Program-made: the position numbers and the translations under genes | The notes under the pieces: generated by a model | Told to the model about the DNA's origin: nothing | Databases searched by the model: none | Seen by the model: only the letters and a program-made list of their open reading frames with translations | Assembly (NCBI GenBank): GCA_946498975.1 | Contig: CAMMQC010000017.1 | Span: 1 to 33,987, forward strand | DNA: 33,987 nucleotides | Reading direction: 5' to 3' | Origin: an uncultured Mycoplasmatota bacterium | GTDB taxonomy: Bacteria; Bacillota_I; Bacilli_A; RF39; UBA660 | Shown here: in pieces, positions 4,764 to 32,126 of the stretch | How positions within the stretch are numbered: position 1 is the stretch's first letter | How the letters are laid out: every line of letters begins with the position of its first letter

Positions 4764-6105
4764 TCATCTTACCTCCCAACAAATAAGATTTATCTTGATA
4801 AGTAGTATGAAGTAACTCTTCTGCTTTTGGACTATTAGGATAATCTAAAAAGTCTTTATATATTTCTTTTATCTCCGGATTTTCATGACAAAATCTTACT
4901 TTTGCCTTTTCATCTTCTTTATAAATACCATTCATTCTAGCAAGCTTAGTCTTATTAAGATTAAGTAAAGTACTCTTAGGTTGTCCTCCACCTGCAATAC
5001 ATCCACCTAAACAGCTCATAACTTCAACAAAATGATAAGTAACTTCTCCACTTCTTATCTTATCTAATAATATTTTAGCATTTTTCATACCGTTAAGAAC
5101 TGCAACTTTAATTTCTAAGTCATCAATCATAACAGAAGCTTCTTTAATACCTTTCATTCCTCTAACTTCATTAAATACTAATTCTTCTTTACTTAAATTT
5201 TTCCCAGTTAAATAGTAATAAGCAGTTCTAAGAGCAGCCTCCAACACTCCCCCACTATTTCCAAAGATTAATCCTGCACTACTACCTTTTCCTAAAGGAG
5301 AATCAAAAGTACCTTCTTCTAAACTATCTAAATCAATACCTTCTTCTTTTAATAACAATGCTAACTCTCTAGTAGTTAAAACAAAATCAGTATCAGAAAC
5401 ACCTAATCTATTAACCTCATCTCTTTTAATCTCACTTTTCTTAGCAGTACATGGAGCGATAACAACATTTAAAATATCTTTAGGACTAATATTTTTCTTG
5501 CCTGCAAAGTAAGTCTTAATCATTGTAGATTGCATCGTAATAGGACTTTTACAACTAGACAGATTAGGTATAAACTCAGGATAAAATATTTCTGCATACT
5601 TTACCCAAGCAGGACAACATGAAGTAAACATAGGTAGAGTTCCTTTATTTTTAATACGATTAACTAACTCCATCGCCTCTTCCATAATCGTTAAGTCAGC
5701 CCCAAAAGTAACATCAAAAACATAATCAAAGCCTAATTTTCTTAAAGCCGTTACTATCTTTCCTTCTAAGTTTTCTCCTAAGTCTCCCCCAAACTCTTCT
5801 CCTATTGCCACTCTAACAGCAGGAGCGATACTAACAGTCTTTACAATACTTTCATCTTTTAATAACCTCTTAAGTCTTAAATAATCAAACTTCTCATGAA
5901 TACTTTCTGTAGGACACATATTAACACACTGCCCACAGTTTATACAAATAGGCTTCCTACTTTTATCTATCTCATACATCCTTGCCACAGTAACTTCATC
6001 ACGACAAGTCTTAACACAATATCCACAAGAAATACATTTACTATAATCTTTTTCTATCGCTTCATTATCTTTAGAATAAATAATTACTAAATCTTCTTCC
6101 TTCAT
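4756..6105 (-). CDS. [FeFe] hydrogenase catalytic subunit
   Basis: 449 aa. The N-terminal ferredoxin domain has two [4Fe-4S] sets (C24/27/30/34 and C54/57/60/64). The H-cluster domain follows, with the three signatures TSCCPAW (161-167), APCTAKKSE (from 217) and EVMSCLGGCIAGGGQP (361-376); the GGVLEAALRT segment near 285-294 also fits. All four cluster cysteines and the proton-relay Cys of TSCCP are present, so it should be active in H2 evolution or uptake. The second signature begins with Ala where most group A enzymes have Met (MPC), a point worth noting. It lacks the longer N-terminal domains of bifurcating HydA. Its partner is the overlapping GltD-like flavoprotein, and 16 nt upstream ends an FMN reductase gene. 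The HydEFG maturases are not in the window. Confidence 0.93.
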   Translation of the reverse strand: MKEEDLVIIYSKDNEAIEKDYSKCISCGYCVKTCRDEVTVARMYEIDKSRKPICINCGQCVNMCPTESIHEKFDYLRLKRLLKDESIVKTVSIAPAVRVAIGEEFGGDLGENLEGKIVTALRKLGFDYVFDVTFGADLTIMEEAMELVNRIKNKGTLPMFTSCCPAWVKYAEIFYPEFIPNLSSCKSPITMQSTMIKTYFAGKKNISPKDILNVVIAPCTAKKSEIKRDEVNRLGVSDTDFVLTTRELALLLKEEGIDLDSLEEGTFDSPLGKGSSAGLIFGNSGGVLEAALRTAYYYLTGKNLSKEELVFNEVRGMKGIKEASVMIDDLEIKVAVLNGMKNAKILLDKIRSGEVTYHFVEVMSCLGGCIAGGGQPKSTLLNLNKTKLARMNGIYKEDEKAKVRFCHENPEIKEIYKDFLDYPNSPKAEELLHTTYQDKSYLLGGKMNE

Positions 6106-6121
6106 ACAACACTTCCTAAAA

Positions 6122-6280
6122 TTATATTTTCATTTTACTTAATATTTCTCTACCATCTGAACTATCAGTAACAACACCCTTCAACTCCATTCCCATTAAA
6201 TAACTTAATCTATTAGATAAAAACTCAATAGACTTAACTGTATCTTGATTAGGTGCAGATCCTTGAGCTAATAAATATAA
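6122..6280 (-). pseudogene. Frameshifted 3' part of the FMN reductase gene
   Basis: Downstream of the premature stop, the -1 frame continues the flavodoxin-like fold (KKLYLLAQGSAPNQDT then to a TAA at 6122-6124), so a whole protein would be 152 aa. The break lies at six A (T6 at 6281-6286 on the plus strand) where seven would keep frame. The restored stop leaves only 16 nt to the hydrogenase start. Confidence 0.8.
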
Positions 6281-6579
6281 TTTTTTCCTCTTAAAACTTC
6301 CGTTTCAGGTAACATATAAAGTCTATCTATAAAAGTCTTTAACATACCACCTACTGTATACCAATAAAGAGGACTACCTATTACTAGAATATCATATTTA
6401 TCTATTTCTTTTAATACCTCTTTCATCTCATCATCTTCGAATACTTGACCATACTGAGATATTCTATAATCTGCCATCTGTAAAACATCATGTTCTTTAT
6501 CTTTTAATAACTCTTCTCCTATTCTATAAGTATTTCCTTCTCTATTAGGACTACTATTCATAAATAATATCTTTTCCAT
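6268..6579 (-). CDS. NADPH-dependent FMN reductase, truncated by a frameshift
   Basis: The 103-aa open frame holds the first two thirds of a small flavodoxin-fold reductase. The FMN phosphate loop is MNSSPNREGNT (7-17) and the flavin-contacting strand is GSPLYWYTVGG (about 69-79). It ends at GKNYIY because one A is missing from an A run; the remaining fold follows in the -1 frame. The codons at the break, GGA AAA AAT, form the heptamer A AAA AAT, which is a -1 slippery pattern, so ribosomal or transcriptional slippage could still make the full protein. A sequencing error or true mutation are equally possible. It is first in a row with the hydrogenase and GltD-like genes and follows a 19-bp-spacer promoter. 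Start supported by GAGGAATG upstream. Confidence 0.85.
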   Translation of the reverse strand: MEKILFMNSSPNREGNTYRIGEELLKDKEHDVLQMADYRISQYGQVFEDDEMKEVLKEIDKYDILVIGSPLYWYTVGGMLKTFIDRLYMLPETEVLRGKNYIY

Positions 6580-6599
6580 AAATCATTCCTCCTACAACC

Positions 6600-6630
6600 A
6601 TAATACACCCGTGTTCTACTCCCATGTCAA
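6600..6630 (-). promoter_or_regulatory. 19-bp-spacer promoter of the FMN reductase-hydrogenase operon
   Basis: On the minus strand a perfect TTGACA (6625-6630) and TATTAT (6600-6605) are 19 bp apart, the same spacing as the AKR promoter. Both share GGGAGTA after the -35 and GGGT before the GTAT near the -10. Unlike the AKR promoter, the dyad is poor (about 5 of 9 pairs). MerR-type activation is plausible but less sure. Confidence 0.65.
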
Positions 6631-6666
6631 GAAAAACAAAAAGACAAGAACTAATTCTCATCTTTT
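6631..6666 (-). terminator. Terminator of the thioredoxin-bPH operon
   Basis: AAAAGA (6639-6644) pairs with TCTTTT (6661-6666), and AGAA with TTCT inside, with two mismatches between. On the minus strand TTGTTTTTC follows. It overlaps the bPH stop codon and ends at the -35 of the next promoter. Confidence 0.7.
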
Positions 6667-7082
6667 AATTCTAACATTGCACTAGTTACTTCTTCTTCTA
6701 TTTCCTGTAAAGCACTTTTACTAATATTAGATAGTATTACTAATTCATTAATTGTATCAATAATAATTTTACCCCAAATAATACCACTTCTAACCTTTAA
6801 ATCATTAAACATATCAGCAGTAATACTATCAAAGAAATAACCAATTACAACTCTATCTCTTGCAATAACTAATCTCTTATTAGTAACTGCAATTATACCA
6901 CTACTAGTAACATCCAAAGAACTATTATTTTTCTGAGCATAGAAAGCATATCTAATTACTTCATCATCATGTAAATGTTCAAGTAATAATTTAGAATGCT
7001 TTTTTAATCTCCACCCAATAGTCAAAGGATATTTACTTTTAAAACTAGCAAGTTGACTTCTTAAAATCTCTTCATTATTCAT
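6651..7082 (-). CDS. Bacterial PH-domain protein (YokE-like)
   Basis: 143 aa. The core GIIAVTNKRLVIARDR followed by short beta strands and a closing helix (SKSALQEIEEEVTSAMLEL) is typical of bacterial pleckstrin-homology domains of the bPH/YokE type. No signal peptide or membrane segment is seen, so it is cytosolic or peripheral. An AGGAG site 5 nt before the ATG supports the start, which lies 8 nt after the stop of the anchored thioredoxin gene; the two form an operon. No function is known for most of this family. Confidence 0.75.
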   Translation of the reverse strand: MNNEEILRSQLASFKSKYPLTIGWRLKKHSKLLLEHLHDDEVIRYAFYAQKNNSSLDVTSSGIIAVTNKRLVIARDRVVIGYFFDSITADMFNDLKVRSGIIWGKIIIDTINELVILSNISKSALQEIEEEVTSAMLELKDEN

Positions 7083-7090
7083 AAATACTC

Positions 7091-7633
7091 CTATTCTTCA
7101 ATAAGTCCATTATCTTTAAAGAAATTAACAGCAGTATCTTTATCAGTAAGGCCTTCTAAAACATCAACAAATTCATCATCTTTAACTACTATTAACATTG
7201 GTGTACCATATCCACCTTCTTCATCAAAGTAATCATTAGACTCTATAAAATCTGCTTGACCTTCATCATCTAACTCATCAGTATTTAAATAATTAACTTC
7301 TATATCATACTCATATACTATATTTCTAACAATAGGTTCCATTTCTTGACAATAATGACAAGTAGGTCTAGCAACATAAATTATAGATGCTTCATCACCT
7401 TTTAATAAATCTAAATATTCATCAATATCAATTTCATTTAAATCTCCTTGTTCATCTTCTGAAATATCACTACTATCATTAGAACTATTATTAGTAGAAC
7501 TTGTTGTAGTAGTACTTCCTCCATTATCACATTCTTTTAATTCTGATGTAAAATAACTTGCACCAAAAACTATTATTAAAACTAAAACTACTATAGTGGT
7601 GTTTTTTACTTTTTCAACTGTTTCTTTCTTCAT
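7091..7633 (-). CDS. Membrane-anchored thioredoxin-like protein
   Basis: 180 aa. A single N-terminal membrane segment (about 12-29) is followed by a Ser/Thr/Asn/Asp-rich linker (36-65) and a thioredoxin fold. The active site is ARPTCHYCQEM, a CxxC with the unusual HY filling, and the cis-proline loop is YGTPMLIV. The membrane anchor places the domain outside, where it may reduce or form disulfides in exported proteins; the nearby glucosaminidase of this window has four clustered Cys, though I do not link them. GGAGGGAG before the ATG supports the start. It forms an operon with the bPH gene. Confidence 0.85.
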   Translation of the reverse strand: MKKETVEKVKNTTIVVLVLIIVFGASYFTSELKECDNGGSTTTTSSTNNSSNDSSDISEDEQGDLNEIDIDEYLDLLKGDEASIIYVARPTCHYCQEMEPIVRNIVYEYDIEVNYLNTDELDDEGQADFIESNDYFDEEGGYGTPMLIVVKDDEFVDVLEGLTDKDTAVNFFKDNGLIEE

Positions 7634-7714
7634 AAACTTCTCCCTCCGTCTACAATTATATCATAAAATAATTAAAAATTAAGTATTATTAATTAATTTC
7701 CTCTAAATTTCACT

Positions 7715-7957
7715 TTAATATATATTTTTTTCATATATACTTTGTAAATTAATCCAAAATTCAGTTGGAATATCAAATAACTTTTCTAAAGCATTAGCAA
7801 ACCTATCAGAAATAGCTTTCCTTCCACTTATTACCTCACTAATATATTCTTTAGAAAAATTAGTTCTAACCATTAACTCTTCTTGTGTCATATTTCTATC
7901 TAATATTATTTCTTTAATAGTTTCTCCTGGATAACTAATTAAATCTTTTTCTATCAT
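7715..7957 (-). CDS. HigA-like XRE-family antitoxin/regulator, orphan
   Basis: 80 aa. A helix-turn-helix spans about 14-50 (MTQEELMVRTNFSKEYISEV), preceded by PGETIKEIILDR and followed by LFDIPTEFWINLQ, the signature of HigA-type antitoxins. I choose the ATG at 7957, with GGGGAG 11 nt upstream; a GTG at 7969 is in frame but touches that site. No HigB toxin gene lies on either side: the upstream neighbour is divergent and the downstream one is the thioredoxin. It is therefore an orphan, or acts as a simple repressor. A weak promoter (TTGATA at 8006-8011, then TATATA 18 nt on) precedes it. Confidence 0.8.
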   Translation of the reverse strand: MIEKDLISYPGETIKEIILDRNMTQEELMVRTNFSKEYISEVISGRKAISDRFANALEKLFDIPTEFWINLQSIYEKNIY

Positions 7958-8071
7958 AATAATACACACTCCCCTTAATCATATATATCATACATTTTAT
8001 AAAATTATCAATAAAAAATAAATATTAAATGATTTTTTTTCATAGAGTATAAAGAAAGGAATGATACCAAA

Positions 8072-8977
8072 ATGAAAATAGGACTTCCAAAAGCACTACT
8101 TTACTATTACTATGCTCCTATATGGAAAGCTTTCTTTAATGAATTAAATGTAAAAGTTATTGAAAGTGATAATACTACTCTTAAGACCCTAATACTAGGT
8201 AAAGAAAAAAGTATTGATGAATCATGTCTTGCTTTAAAGATATATCTAGGACATATTGAAGAATTAAAAGATAAATGTGATTATATCTTAATACCAAGAA
8301 TATATTCTTTAACCAAATCAGAACAAGTCTGTACTAATTTCAATGCTTTATATGACATTGTAAGAAATACTTTTCCTGACATAAAGATATTAAATTATAA
8401 TATTGATATTAAACACCATCATAGTGAAAAAAGTAGTTTTATCAAAATAGGAAAAGAACTAGGCTTTAGTATTATAGAGTCTTTAGAAGCTTATAACAAG
8501 GCAAAAGAAATAGAAAATGATTATTATAAAAATGAAGAAAAGAAAGCTAAAGAAGAATTAAGAAGTAATAAAACAAAGATATTATTACTAGGTCATCCCT
8601 ATATTTTAAATGATAATTTAATAGGTAAAAACATAACAAACTATCTAGAAAAAAATAATATCTCTATTATTTACAGTTATCAAATACCAAGAGATTTAAT
8701 AGAGTTTAATTGTAGTAAAATATCTACTAAAATACACTTTACTATGAACAAAGAATTACTCTCAGCTTTTAATTATTTTAAAGATAAAGTAGATGGTACT
8801 ATTATCTTAACAGCATTCCCATGTGGACCAGATTCTCTATCTAATGAAATGATTATAAGAAAAAGAAAAAAACATCCTACTATTTCTCTAACGTTTGAAG
8901 ATTTAACTAATAATACAGCAGTTATCACAAGACTAGAAAGCTTTCTAGATATGTTAAAAGGAGGAATCCACTTATGA
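8072..8977 (+). CDS. DUF2229-type acyl-CoA dehydratase activase-related protein, part 1
   Basis: 301 aa, no signal peptide. The start MKIGLPKALLYYYYAPIW and the later FPCGPDSL (from 249) are hallmarks of the DUF2229 region found in giant (about 1,400-aa) CoA-enzyme-activase proteins. Cys at 52 (DESCLALK), 69, 87 (SEQVCTNF), 214 and 251 could bind an iron-sulfur cluster. Here the region is a separate gene, first of three overlapping genes; the next starts in its last codons (ATGA). AAGGA lies about 11 nt before the ATG. Relatives are linked to 2-hydroxyacyl-CoA dehydratase components and double-cubane-cluster proteins, which use ATP to drive low-potential reductions, but the substrate of this branch is unknown. 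Confidence 0.8.
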   Translation: MKIGLPKALLYYYYAPIWKAFFNELNVKVIESDNTTLKTLILGKEKSIDESCLALKIYLGHIEELKDKCDYILIPRIYSLTKSEQVCTNFNALYDIVRNTFPDIKILNYNIDIKHHHSEKSSFIKIGKELGFSIIESLEAYNKAKEIENDYYKNEEKKAKEELRSNKTKILLLGHPYILNDNLIGKNITNYLEKNNISIIYSYQIPRDLIEFNCSKISTKIHFTMNKELLSAFNYFKDKVDGTIILTAFPCGPDSLSNEMIIRKRKKHPTISLTFEDLTNNTAVITRLESFLDMLKGGIHL

Positions 8978-10062
8978 AACAGTTAATAGCATTCCCTCAA
9001 CTTGGTAATTATTTTAATCCCTTAAGAAAATTAATAACAAATACTACTCATCTAAAAGTAATAGAAATGCCTAAAATAACAAAGAAAACTATTTCCTTAG
9101 GTTCTAAAAACTCTCCTGATACCGTATGTGTTCCTTTTAAATATAATTTAGGTAATTTTATAGAAGCTTTAGATAAAGGAGCAACTGTATTATTTCAAGC
9201 AGGAGGAGGTTGTAGATATAGATACTATGCTGAAGTACAAGAGACTATTCTTAAAGATTTAGGATACAATTTTACAATGTATCAAATAGCAGAAAAAGAT
9301 CATTTAAGATTTAATGAACTCTACTCTACTATGTTAAAGTTAAACCCTTATCTTACTAGAAGAAAGCTTATAAAGGAAATAATAAGTACTCTTCTTTACA
9401 TATATTATTTAGATAACATAGATATTTACATAAGAAAAAGAGTTGGTTTTGAAAAGAACAAAAATAGCTTTAAAAAGATTAAAGATGACTTTATTAAGAA
9501 AGCGAACATTGAAAATAGTATTATAAAATTAACAAGACTCTATCATAAAACAAAGAAAGAACTAAGAAAAGTAGAGATTAATAAACCTAAAGATACTCTA
9601 AAAGTAGGTATCATAGGAGAATTATATACAGCAATGGAACCATTCGCTACATATGAATTAGAAAAGCTATTAGCATCTTACAACATAGAAATAAAAAGAT
9701 TTACTAATCTTAGTTATTTATTATGGCAAAAGAAATTAATAGAAAAATATATGAAGTTTAAAGTAAGAAAGTATTGTAAATATACATTAGGAGCAGATGG
9801 ACTTGATAATGTCTATCGTGTCTACTGGTTAAAAAAACACAAATATGATGGTATCATTCATACAAAACCTACAGGATGTACTCCAGAAATAGGAGCAATG
9901 CCAATAATAATGAATATTGCTAAAGATAATAATATGCCTATTATATTCTTATCTTTTGATGAACAAACAGGAGTTGAGGGATTAAATACAAGGATTGAAG
10001 CATTTTATGATTTATTAAAGATTAAGAAGGAGGAAGAAAATGGAAGCAAGTCTAGGAATTGA
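8974..10062 (+). CDS. HgdB/DUF2229-like putative iron-sulfur protein, part 2
   Basis: 362 aa. The motifs DTVCVPFKYNLGNF, QAGGGCRYRYYAEVQ and PTGCTPEIGAMP place conserved cysteines where the 2-hydroxyacyl-CoA dehydratase D-like (HgdB) region of giant activase-related proteins has its cluster ligands. A basic, helical middle (about 130-190) separates two alpha/beta halves; the second half starts with LKVGIIGELYTAMEPFATYE. No CoA-transferase or dehydratase genes are nearby, so it need not act on an acyl-CoA. It overlaps gene 1 by 4 nt and gene 3 by 23 nt, so the three products are probably made together and form one complex. Enzymatic role unknown. Confidence 0.78.
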   Translation: MKQLIAFPQLGNYFNPLRKLITNTTHLKVIEMPKITKKTISLGSKNSPDTVCVPFKYNLGNFIEALDKGATVLFQAGGGCRYRYYAEVQETILKDLGYNFTMYQIAEKDHLRFNELYSTMLKLNPYLTRRKLIKEIISTLLYIYYLDNIDIYIRKRVGFEKNKNSFKKIKDDFIKKANIENSIIKLTRLYHKTKKELRKVEINKPKDTLKVGIIGELYTAMEPFATYELEKLLASYNIEIKRFTNLSYLLWQKKLIEKYMKFKVRKYCKYTLGADGLDNVYRVYWLKKHKYDGIIHTKPTGCTPEIGAMPIIMNIAKDNNMPIIFLSFDEQTGVEGLNTRIEAFYDLLKIKKEEENGSKSRN

Positions 10063-31210: not shown

Positions 31211-31237
31211 ATCCTTACTCCTTTCATTATTACATAC

Positions 31238-31269
31238 AAAAAAAGAATAAAATTATCCTCTATTCTTTT
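31238..31269 (-). terminator. Intrinsic terminator in the leader of the surface gene
   Basis: On the minus strand AAAAGAATA (31269-31261) pairs with TATTCTTTT (31249-31241), followed by more T, seven in all. It lies 28 nt before the surface gene start, downstream of the poly-G ORFs. One of those ORFs ends with TAG at 31262-31260, inside the 5' arm and the loop edge. That makes it a candidate attenuator. Confidence 0.75.
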
Positions 31270-31340
31270 AAGCCATAATGAAAGAAAGTAACTAAATTAC
31301 TACTAAACTGCCCCCCCCCCAAGTAACATATTGTAAACAT
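31260..31340 (-). CDS. 26-codon leader ORF spanning the poly-G tract (frame open at G10)
   Basis: The ORF starts at the ATG at 31340 and reads MFTICYLGGGQFSSN and on to HYGLKE, stopping with TAG at 31260-31262. The three Gly are GGG codons from the G10 tract, very rare in this AT-rich DNA. With ten G this frame is open through to the terminator stem. Its ribosome site is poor (GAAGATG nearby). It is too short to be sure it is made. Confidence 0.4.
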   Translation of the reverse strand: MFTICYLGGGQFSSNLVTFFHYGLKE

Positions 31341-31351
31341 GACATCTTCAT
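31292..31351 (-). CDS. Alternative leader ORF with good ribosome site, stopped early at G10
   Basis: The ATG at 31351 has AGAAGG 7 nt upstream (31358-31364 region) and reads MKMSCLQYVTWGGGSLVVI, 19 aa, ending at 31292. If the G tract were 8 or 11, this ORF would shift into the frame that ends at 31260 in the terminator. With 9 or 12 it stops at once after the tract. So tract length decides whether ribosomes reach the hairpin. Confidence 0.4.
   Translation of the reverse strand: MKMSCLQYVTWGGGSLVVI
31311..31320. repeat. Poly-C/G tract of 10
   Basis: Ten consecutive C on the plus strand, in an intergenic stretch otherwise almost free of G/C. It is the longest G/C homopolymer I see in the window. 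Such tracts slip at high rate and in many bacteria switch surface genes. Confidence 0.95.
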
Positions 31352-31385
31352 AGTTCAACCTTCTTTCTTATCTTTTGTTAATTTA

Positions 31386-31414
31386 ATGTTATCACAAATT
31401 ACTTTAAATAACAA
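31386..31414 (-). promoter_or_regulatory. Possible promoter of the poly-G leader
   Basis: On the minus strand TTGTTA (31409-31414) and TAACAT (31386-31391) are 17 bp apart; each matches 4 of 6 consensus bases. It lies about 35 nt before the first leader ORF and right after the 3D gene stop. Confidence 0.4.
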
Positions 31415-31419
31415 TATTT

Positions 31420-32097
31420 TTAATAACCAACTCTTAATATTTTAAAAGTAACATTCCGACTAACACCATAGTTTATCGCTTCTTTACTTGTCTTAAACAA
31501 TAAATCAAAGTCATACACTCTACCAAATCCAATATTACGTCCTGTATCTAAAACAATTCCAATAAAACTACCAGCATTGCTATTACTAACTTCTATAACA
31601 GTACCAAAAGGAATACTTCCATCTCCTGCTAATATTCTAATATCACCATAAGTAGAATCAGAATAATAAATACTATCACCTATATAATGTCCTGAAGCCG
31701 TATAATTACCAATATCAGAACCATATCCACTCATAGTACCTTTAAAAGTAGAACCAACTGTAATAGAAGGAATATAAACTTCTTCTGAAGGTTTACTATC
31801 AATAGGAGTATTATCTTCTATTACTTCGTCTTTTCCTACAACTACTTCTTCTTTAGGCTCCTCTTCTACAACCTCTTCTTGAACTTCTTCCTCTACTACT
31901 TCAGGTTCTTCTTCTACTTCTTCTACTATTTCAACAGGTGCAACTTCAATAACTTCTTCTTTTGTAATCGCATCACTATTTACATAAGTAATTTTATTAT
32001 TTACATCTATACCCTTTACATCAGGTGTAGTTGTACTAACAAGTAAACAACACCCCATAAATAAAATTGCATTAATAATATAAATGGTTCTCTTCAT
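31420..32097 (-). CDS. Exported 3D-domain cell-wall protein
   Basis: 225 aa from the ATG at 32097 (AAGG 11 nt upstream; an in-frame GTG at 32106 is too close to the site). A signal segment covers about 4-22. A Glu/Val/Pro-rich linker (about 48-90) follows, then a domain with FKGTMSGYGSD and AGDGSIPFGTVIEVS. It ends with LDTGRNIG and RVYDFDLLF, the Asp-rich core of 3D domains, a double-psi beta-barrel found in wall-active lytic transglycosylase-like proteins such as Rpf/YocH types. No LysM or SH3 domain is attached, so substrate binding may be by the linker or partner proteins. It lies before MurE's end in a run of envelope genes. Confidence 0.8.
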   Translation of the reverse strand: MKRTIYIINAILFMGCCLLVSTTTPDVKGIDVNNKITYVNSDAITKEEVIEVAPVEIVEEVEEEPEVVEEEVQEEVVEEEPKEEVVVGKDEVIEDNTPIDSKPSEEVYIPSITVGSTFKGTMSGYGSDIGNYTASGHYIGDSIYYSDSTYGDIRILAGDGSIPFGTVIEVSNSNAGSFIGIVLDTGRNIGFGRVYDFDLLFKTSKEAINYGVSRNVTFKILRVGY

Positions 32098-32126
32098 AAA
32101 TATCACTGCCTTCTATATACATTTAT

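Follow-up and report, generated by a model that had tools for sequence, protein, structure and literature searches.

A variable poly-G tract in a short leader ORF as a probable phase-variable attenuator of exported-protein genes in Candidatus Onthousia

The DNA considered here, called the window, is a stretch of 33,987 nucleotides from a genome of Candidatus Onthousia, a genus of uncultured gut Bacilli. The features of interest are listed in Table 1. They consist of a putative exported-protein gene, the elements that precede it and a run of ten G's. An earlier note on this DNA had described a ten-base homopolymer in AT-rich intergenic DNA. The tract itself is confirmed, and the next longest C run on the plus strand has 5 bases. 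"Intergenic" is correct in that no long ORF covers the tract; it is, nevertheless, part of a short minus-strand leader ORF.

The product of the downstream gene has an N-terminal membrane helix ending in SYAMF, an unannotated beta-rich domain and two repeated C-terminal modules. The earlier note called these modules lectin-like, and this is not confirmed: the protein has no match in Pfam, NCBIfam or the PDB sequences, two structure predictions are of low confidence (mean pLDDT 40.8 and 44.9), and a PDB fold search with the second gave no meaningful match. The protein family has 11 matches in its own genome, several of them partial, and at least one full-length paralogue, on contig C8, lacks a leader. 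The neighbouring upstream ORF (31420-32106, minus strand) encodes a very acidic, E/V-rich stretch; we take the tail of its product, by eye, to resemble the 3D-domain type. An Rfam search gave no match at the gathering score and a single weak snoRNA match (E 4.8).

Table 1. Features of the leader region and the gene that follows it (window coordinates)
Feature	Position	Strand	Basis or remark
Putative regulated gene, exported protein of 611 aa	29375..31210	-	ORF
Outer stem, 3' arm, with the SD of the downstream gene, GAAAGGAG	31215..31230	-	Fold, duplex test
Terminator-like hairpin, 12 bp stem, U run to 31238	31241..31269	-	Fold and covariation
Alternative-frame stop codon, would be reached with G8 or G11	31260..31262	-	Frame table; in the 5' arm of the hairpin
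Outer stem, 5' arm, leader codons VTFFHY (anti-SD)	31275..31291	-	Fold (z -3.87); duplex test
Leader ORF in the G10 state, MKMSCLQYVTWGGGSLVVI	31292..31351	-	Translation and frame table; stop TAG 31294-31292, upstream of the hairpin
G10 tract	31311..31320	-	Read directly; inside the leader ORF; C10 on the plus strand
Conserved leader core TGTTTACAATATGTTACTTGG (CLQYVTW)	31319..31339	-	7 copies in the genome, 27/35 genus genomes, controls near zero
Leader Shine-Dalgarno (SD) AAGAAGG	31359..31365	-	Sequence; AAGAAGG in 86/125 distinct upstream regions
Putative -10, TGTGATAAC	31388..31393	-	42 nt upstream of the leader ATG; inferred from sequence position

The tract stands out both in the window and in the genome. 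The longest other runs in the window are five C's and four G's, and the mean number of C9 matches expected is 0.03 (100 dinucleotide shuffles). The whole genome (1,496,360 bases in 50 contigs) contains only six G/C runs of at least seven bases and three of at least nine, the latter on contigs C6, C9 and C17. Four of the six (C6, C9, C17 and C19) have one conserved context in common and the other two are without it. All three of the runs of at least nine are in one type of element.

The order of this element is a promoter-like site, the leader SD, an ATG, the codons NGT TTA CAA NNN GTT ACC TGG and the G tract, followed by a spacer of 16-67 nt, a motif beginning ACTTTCTTT, a hairpin, a U run, a second SD and the gene. 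The -10-like sites of the copies peak at -42 to -39, and the putative -10 of the window agrees with this position. An SD and an in-frame ATG precede the tract in 137 of 149 copies, and we infer that the leader ORF is translated. The number of G's determines where the leader ends. With G10, as in the window, the stop codon is at 31294-31292; one more G moves it to 31262-31260 and two more to 31305-31303. The hairpin extends from 31269 to 31241, so that the stop with one added G falls in its 5' arm and the other two lie upstream.

This arrangement is not peculiar to the window. All 149 copies have one frame that runs without a stop from the tract to the ACTTTCTTT motif; of the other two frames, one does so in 3 copies and the other in none. 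In 145 of the 149 the open frame terminates at or in the hairpin, 27 or 30 nt past the motif's start. In 22 of 23 representative spacers both of the non-open frames contain a stop, compared with 15.3 expected from codon shuffling, which is only a modest excess of out-of-frame stops. A second frame, which reads LPGGG and in which G9 would be in frame, was considered and rejected; an SD and ATG in that frame occur in one copy only.

The hairpin is conserved as a structure. Across 35 diverse copies its core of 11 pairs has 98.5% of the cells paired, with compensatory changes: both sides differ in 13 cells, no shuffle out of 500 scored as high, and slid controls gave 53-71%. The window hairpin is almost entirely A-U (-8 to -9 kcal/mol, z -1.7 by itself) and therefore could be a weak terminator; a simple terminator scan that needs three G-C pairs did not flag it. 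RNAalifold on a MAFFT alignment recovered this inner stem alone, owing to variation in the linker ahead of the SD, and the outer stem was assessed by duplex energies instead. Over 97 copies the anti-SD arm paired with its own SD region at a mean of -12.4 kcal/mol, compared with -10.9 for swapped partners, -7.9 for the SD regions of 22 other genes and -7.1 for shuffled sequences. Since the VTFFHY codons can pair with the SD and enclose the hairpin, an in-frame ribosome would relieve both termination and the hiding of the SD.

We recovered 166 distinct copies of the element from the genus. A search with the core TGTTTACAATATGTTACYTGG found seven copies in the window's own genome and its reverse, used as a control, found none there. 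Core copies are present in 27 of the 35 genus genomes, with up to about 30 matches per genome, and genomes that lack the exact core (G003, G005 and G006, for example) have a diverged element that retains the tract. Runs of at least nine G's occur in 34 of the 35 genomes. When the listed places in eleven genomes were compared by eye, about 90 of 104 such runs were within core matches. The exact core was not found in 143 other genera of the family. The position of the element is constant over dozens of genomes, although the flanks diverge. The window's own genome also holds one degenerate copy, with four G's, on contig C3. Many of the tracts in genome G027 (contigs C7, C15, C17, C18, C22, C43 and C72) are less than 200 bases from a contig end, and therefore the repeated leaders probably break assemblies.

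Tract lengths range from 3 to 13, with a mode of 9 (88 of 166 copies); short tracts are under-counted, since some of the copies were retrieved by a pattern with a minimum of five G's. Near-identical loci differ in length. For example, locus L054 has G11, which is in frame, and L084 has G9, which is out of frame; L170 has G11 and L171 has G10. In both pairs the flanks are identical over about 370 nt, and the alignments, which join different genomes, have 99% identity over 2.6-2.8 kb. The window locus (L003, G10) likewise differs from its nearest relative (L237 in genome G008, G9). Most of the genomes are consensus MAGs and each species is represented by one, so that these differences are between loci and not within populations. 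As the earlier note had supposed, then, the tract behaves like one of the contingency type: its length varies between near-identical loci, and tracts of this kind precede exported-protein genes here and genus-wide.

The lengths are also biased with respect to frame. Only 25 of 149 copies are in frame, compared with 40.0 expected (length permutation, P 0.0005), and with one copy per cluster the count is 23 compared with 32.7 (P 0.011); these P values are optimistic in that the copies are related. G9 is found in 6 of the 32 copies where it would be in frame and in 74 of the 117 where it would be out of frame. This bias suggests that the reading frame is of consequence and that, in consensus assemblies, the presumed OFF state is that of most copies. 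In the window's own genome, the copies on C9, C19 and C15 are in frame and those on C6, C17 and C1 are out of frame. Some pairs of loci (L023/L072, L091/L186 and L076/L084) have near-identical upstream flanks and differ in their spacers or downstream parts past the tract, which suggests that copies have recombined at the tract or close to it.

Nearly all of the ORFs that follow the elements encode paralogous exported proteins; these have a hydrophobic helix at the N-terminus and, in most cases, an SYA-type motif. One of them displays an additional source of variation. At L012 (G000 contig C9:23000-34500) a diversity-generating retroelement (DGR) at 5809-9691 lies behind an element copy with G9 that is in frame. 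A variable repeat (7319-7414) forms the end of the candidate phase-variable gene (5809-7488); all 22 of the 22 mismatches between this repeat and the template repeat (7600-7695) are at template adenines, and an Avd-like ORF (a sub-threshold match) and then a reverse transcriptase follow. A second DGR-like reverse transcriptase is near another exported-protein paralogue (L349, G000 contig C33:247-900, and C33:2209-3702). A scan of the longer loci for DGR repeat pairs found none beyond C9. Another exported-protein gene, at L007 (G000 contig C15:34035), has an end that resembles a DGR variable region; just past its stop, and so at a 3' end, a G8 tract is flanked by a strong inverted repeat on one side and a T run on the other.

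We think it likely that slippage at the tract switches a phase-variable, translation-coupled attenuator in which the in-frame state is ON. We commit to this reading because the layout equals that of Pil1 in Streptococcus gallolyticus, which was shown by mutation. In Pil1 a short leader that ends well before the terminator gives low expression and frame-shifted longer leaders that end in or past the terminator give high expression; loss of the start codon lowers expression and loss of the terminator raises it (PMC3894217). The same traits are found here: a repeat in a leader ORF that has an SD and a start codon, a repeat number that shifts the stop to before or into the hairpin, a U-tailed hairpin between leader and gene that is conserved by covariation, and tract lengths that differ at near-identical loci (L054/L084, L170/L171 and L003/L237).

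In the proposed mechanism transcription would begin 5' of the leader ORF. Slipped-strand errors in living cells would add or remove G's, and the length of the tract would set the frame of the ribosomes that emerge from it. One of the three frames would carry a ribosome past the VTFFHY codons to a stop within the 5' arm of the U-tailed hairpin; there it would keep the terminator from forming and free the SD of the surface-protein gene from the outer stem (ON). A ribosome in either of the remaining frames would stop soon after the tract, the hairpin and the outer stem would form, and transcription would end early or the SD would be hidden (OFF). The window copy, with G10, reads as an OFF frame, and 8 or 11 G's would be ON.

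The strongest competing explanation, which we consider improbable, is the same phase-variable leader with the opposite polarity: a stop just past the tract would favour expression and in-frame reading would repress it. In its favour, 124 of 149 copies are out of frame, and the most common state, G9 out of frame, could instead be the functional form. Against this, it is common for a phase-variable surface gene to be OFF in the majority of cells. By eye, UUUCUUU is able to pair with the 5' arm of the terminator, which would make it a possible antiterminator in support of the opposite polarity. However, the in-frame stop lies within the terminator stem, where a ribosome blocks the hairpin, and this is how Pil1 works (PMC3894217).

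It is quite unlikely that the tract acts as RNA independently of frame, the G run pairing with the UUUCUUU arm or with a C/U-rich sRNA. RepG and tlpB offer a precedent (PMC8295292), the letters of UUUCUUU are almost invariant, and G10 pairs with CUUUCUUUC when the leader is folded alone. Such pairing leaves several features unaccounted for: a single frame is open, its stop falls in the stem, the leader has an SD and an ATG, and the lengths are biased with respect to frame.

The promoter of porA in Neisseria meningitidis has a variable-length poly-G that acts through the -35 to -10 spacing, and the earlier note suggested an effect on promoter spacing independent of any attenuator. In the window, the tract is in the leader ORF of the attenuator and is not between a -35 and a -10: the -10-like site lies upstream of the leader ATG, with the promoter-like site about 40 nt 5' of the leader start, the 16-67 nt spacer 3' of the tract varies among copies with no common -10 at a fixed distance, and the sole promoter-like match nearby (31358-31330) does not extend across the tract and is no more than the chance rate would give. 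We therefore regard promoter spacing as highly improbable for this element, although the idea does fit several genera elsewhere in the family, whose tracts are between TTGACA and a -10 (in G046, TTGACA-AATATGC-G10-TATCCT). A chance tract, an assembly artefact or decayed sequence has next to no standing, in spite of the MAG data and the degenerate C3 copy, given the recurrence at the same place over dozens of genomes with diverging flanks, the expectation of 0.03 per window and the 64 of 141 family genomes (140 genera) that have no run of at least nine G's.

The remaining genomes in that family survey have up to 48 such runs, and the contexts inspected are of two kinds. In G046, G122, G091 and G102 TTGACA or TTGACC lies on one side of the tract and a -10 on the other, and the gene that follows often encodes a similar exported protein; loci L329-L334 would represent this second, promoter-spacing form of control. 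In G114 and G126 the context is a leader ORF and a hairpin, and in G114 one frame in three reads into the hairpin, a layout like that of Onthousia in unrelated sequence.

More tentatively, Onthousia may have a genome-wide variable-surface system, in which each paralogue has its poly-G attenuator, crossover at the tract also exchanges leader and downstream cassette, and DGRs hypermutate the tips of some of the proteins. The DGR part was seen at one locus, on contig C9; there, if this reading is true, a single gene would be both phase variable and sequence variable. Since the state of an attenuator would be readable from DNA, metagenomes would allow a direct count of ON/OFF repertoires, and with such counts questions of immune or phage pressure on gut commensals could be tested without cultures.

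A slippage-controlled leader attenuator has been described for the pili of one Streptococcus, and the open-access literature that we searched has no description of a poly-G leader attenuator in Candidatus Onthousia. Other known systems resemble parts of the element. It is like porA in having a variable poly-G upstream of a surface-protein gene, and the porA layout itself was seen in other genera of the family and not in the window. It is like the trp-type leader-peptide attenuators in that leader translation would decide whether the terminator forms, but here no metabolite needs to be sensed and the length of a DNA tract would set the state. The tlpB leader of Helicobacter pylori has a variable G-repeat in its mRNA that a trans-acting sRNA (RepG) reads (PMC8295292), whereas here the tract is in a leader ORF with frame-dependent stops. 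The ON/OFF switch of bifidobacterial pili also combines replication slippage, a gut Gram-positive and a surface structure; the abstract of that report mentions no leader-attenuator layout (PMC9187656).

The closest relatives are Pil1 and Pil3, for which the mechanism was shown experimentally in S. gallolyticus (Danne et al. 2014, PMC3894217). They share with the window element a slippage repeat in a leader ORF, a stop whose position relative to a hairpin depends on frame, and a surface target. They differ in that the repeat is GCAGA there and poly-G here, and that there are two loci there and up to about 30 core matches per genome here. Unlike theirs, the hairpin here is enclosed by an outer stem that would sequester the SD, and the target is a different family of exported proteins, from uncultured gut Bacilli. 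If our reading is true, the logic of Pil1, with poly-G as its repeat, controls whole families of surface proteins across an uncultured gut genus, and in neighbouring genera poly-G acts on similar proteins by promoter spacing.
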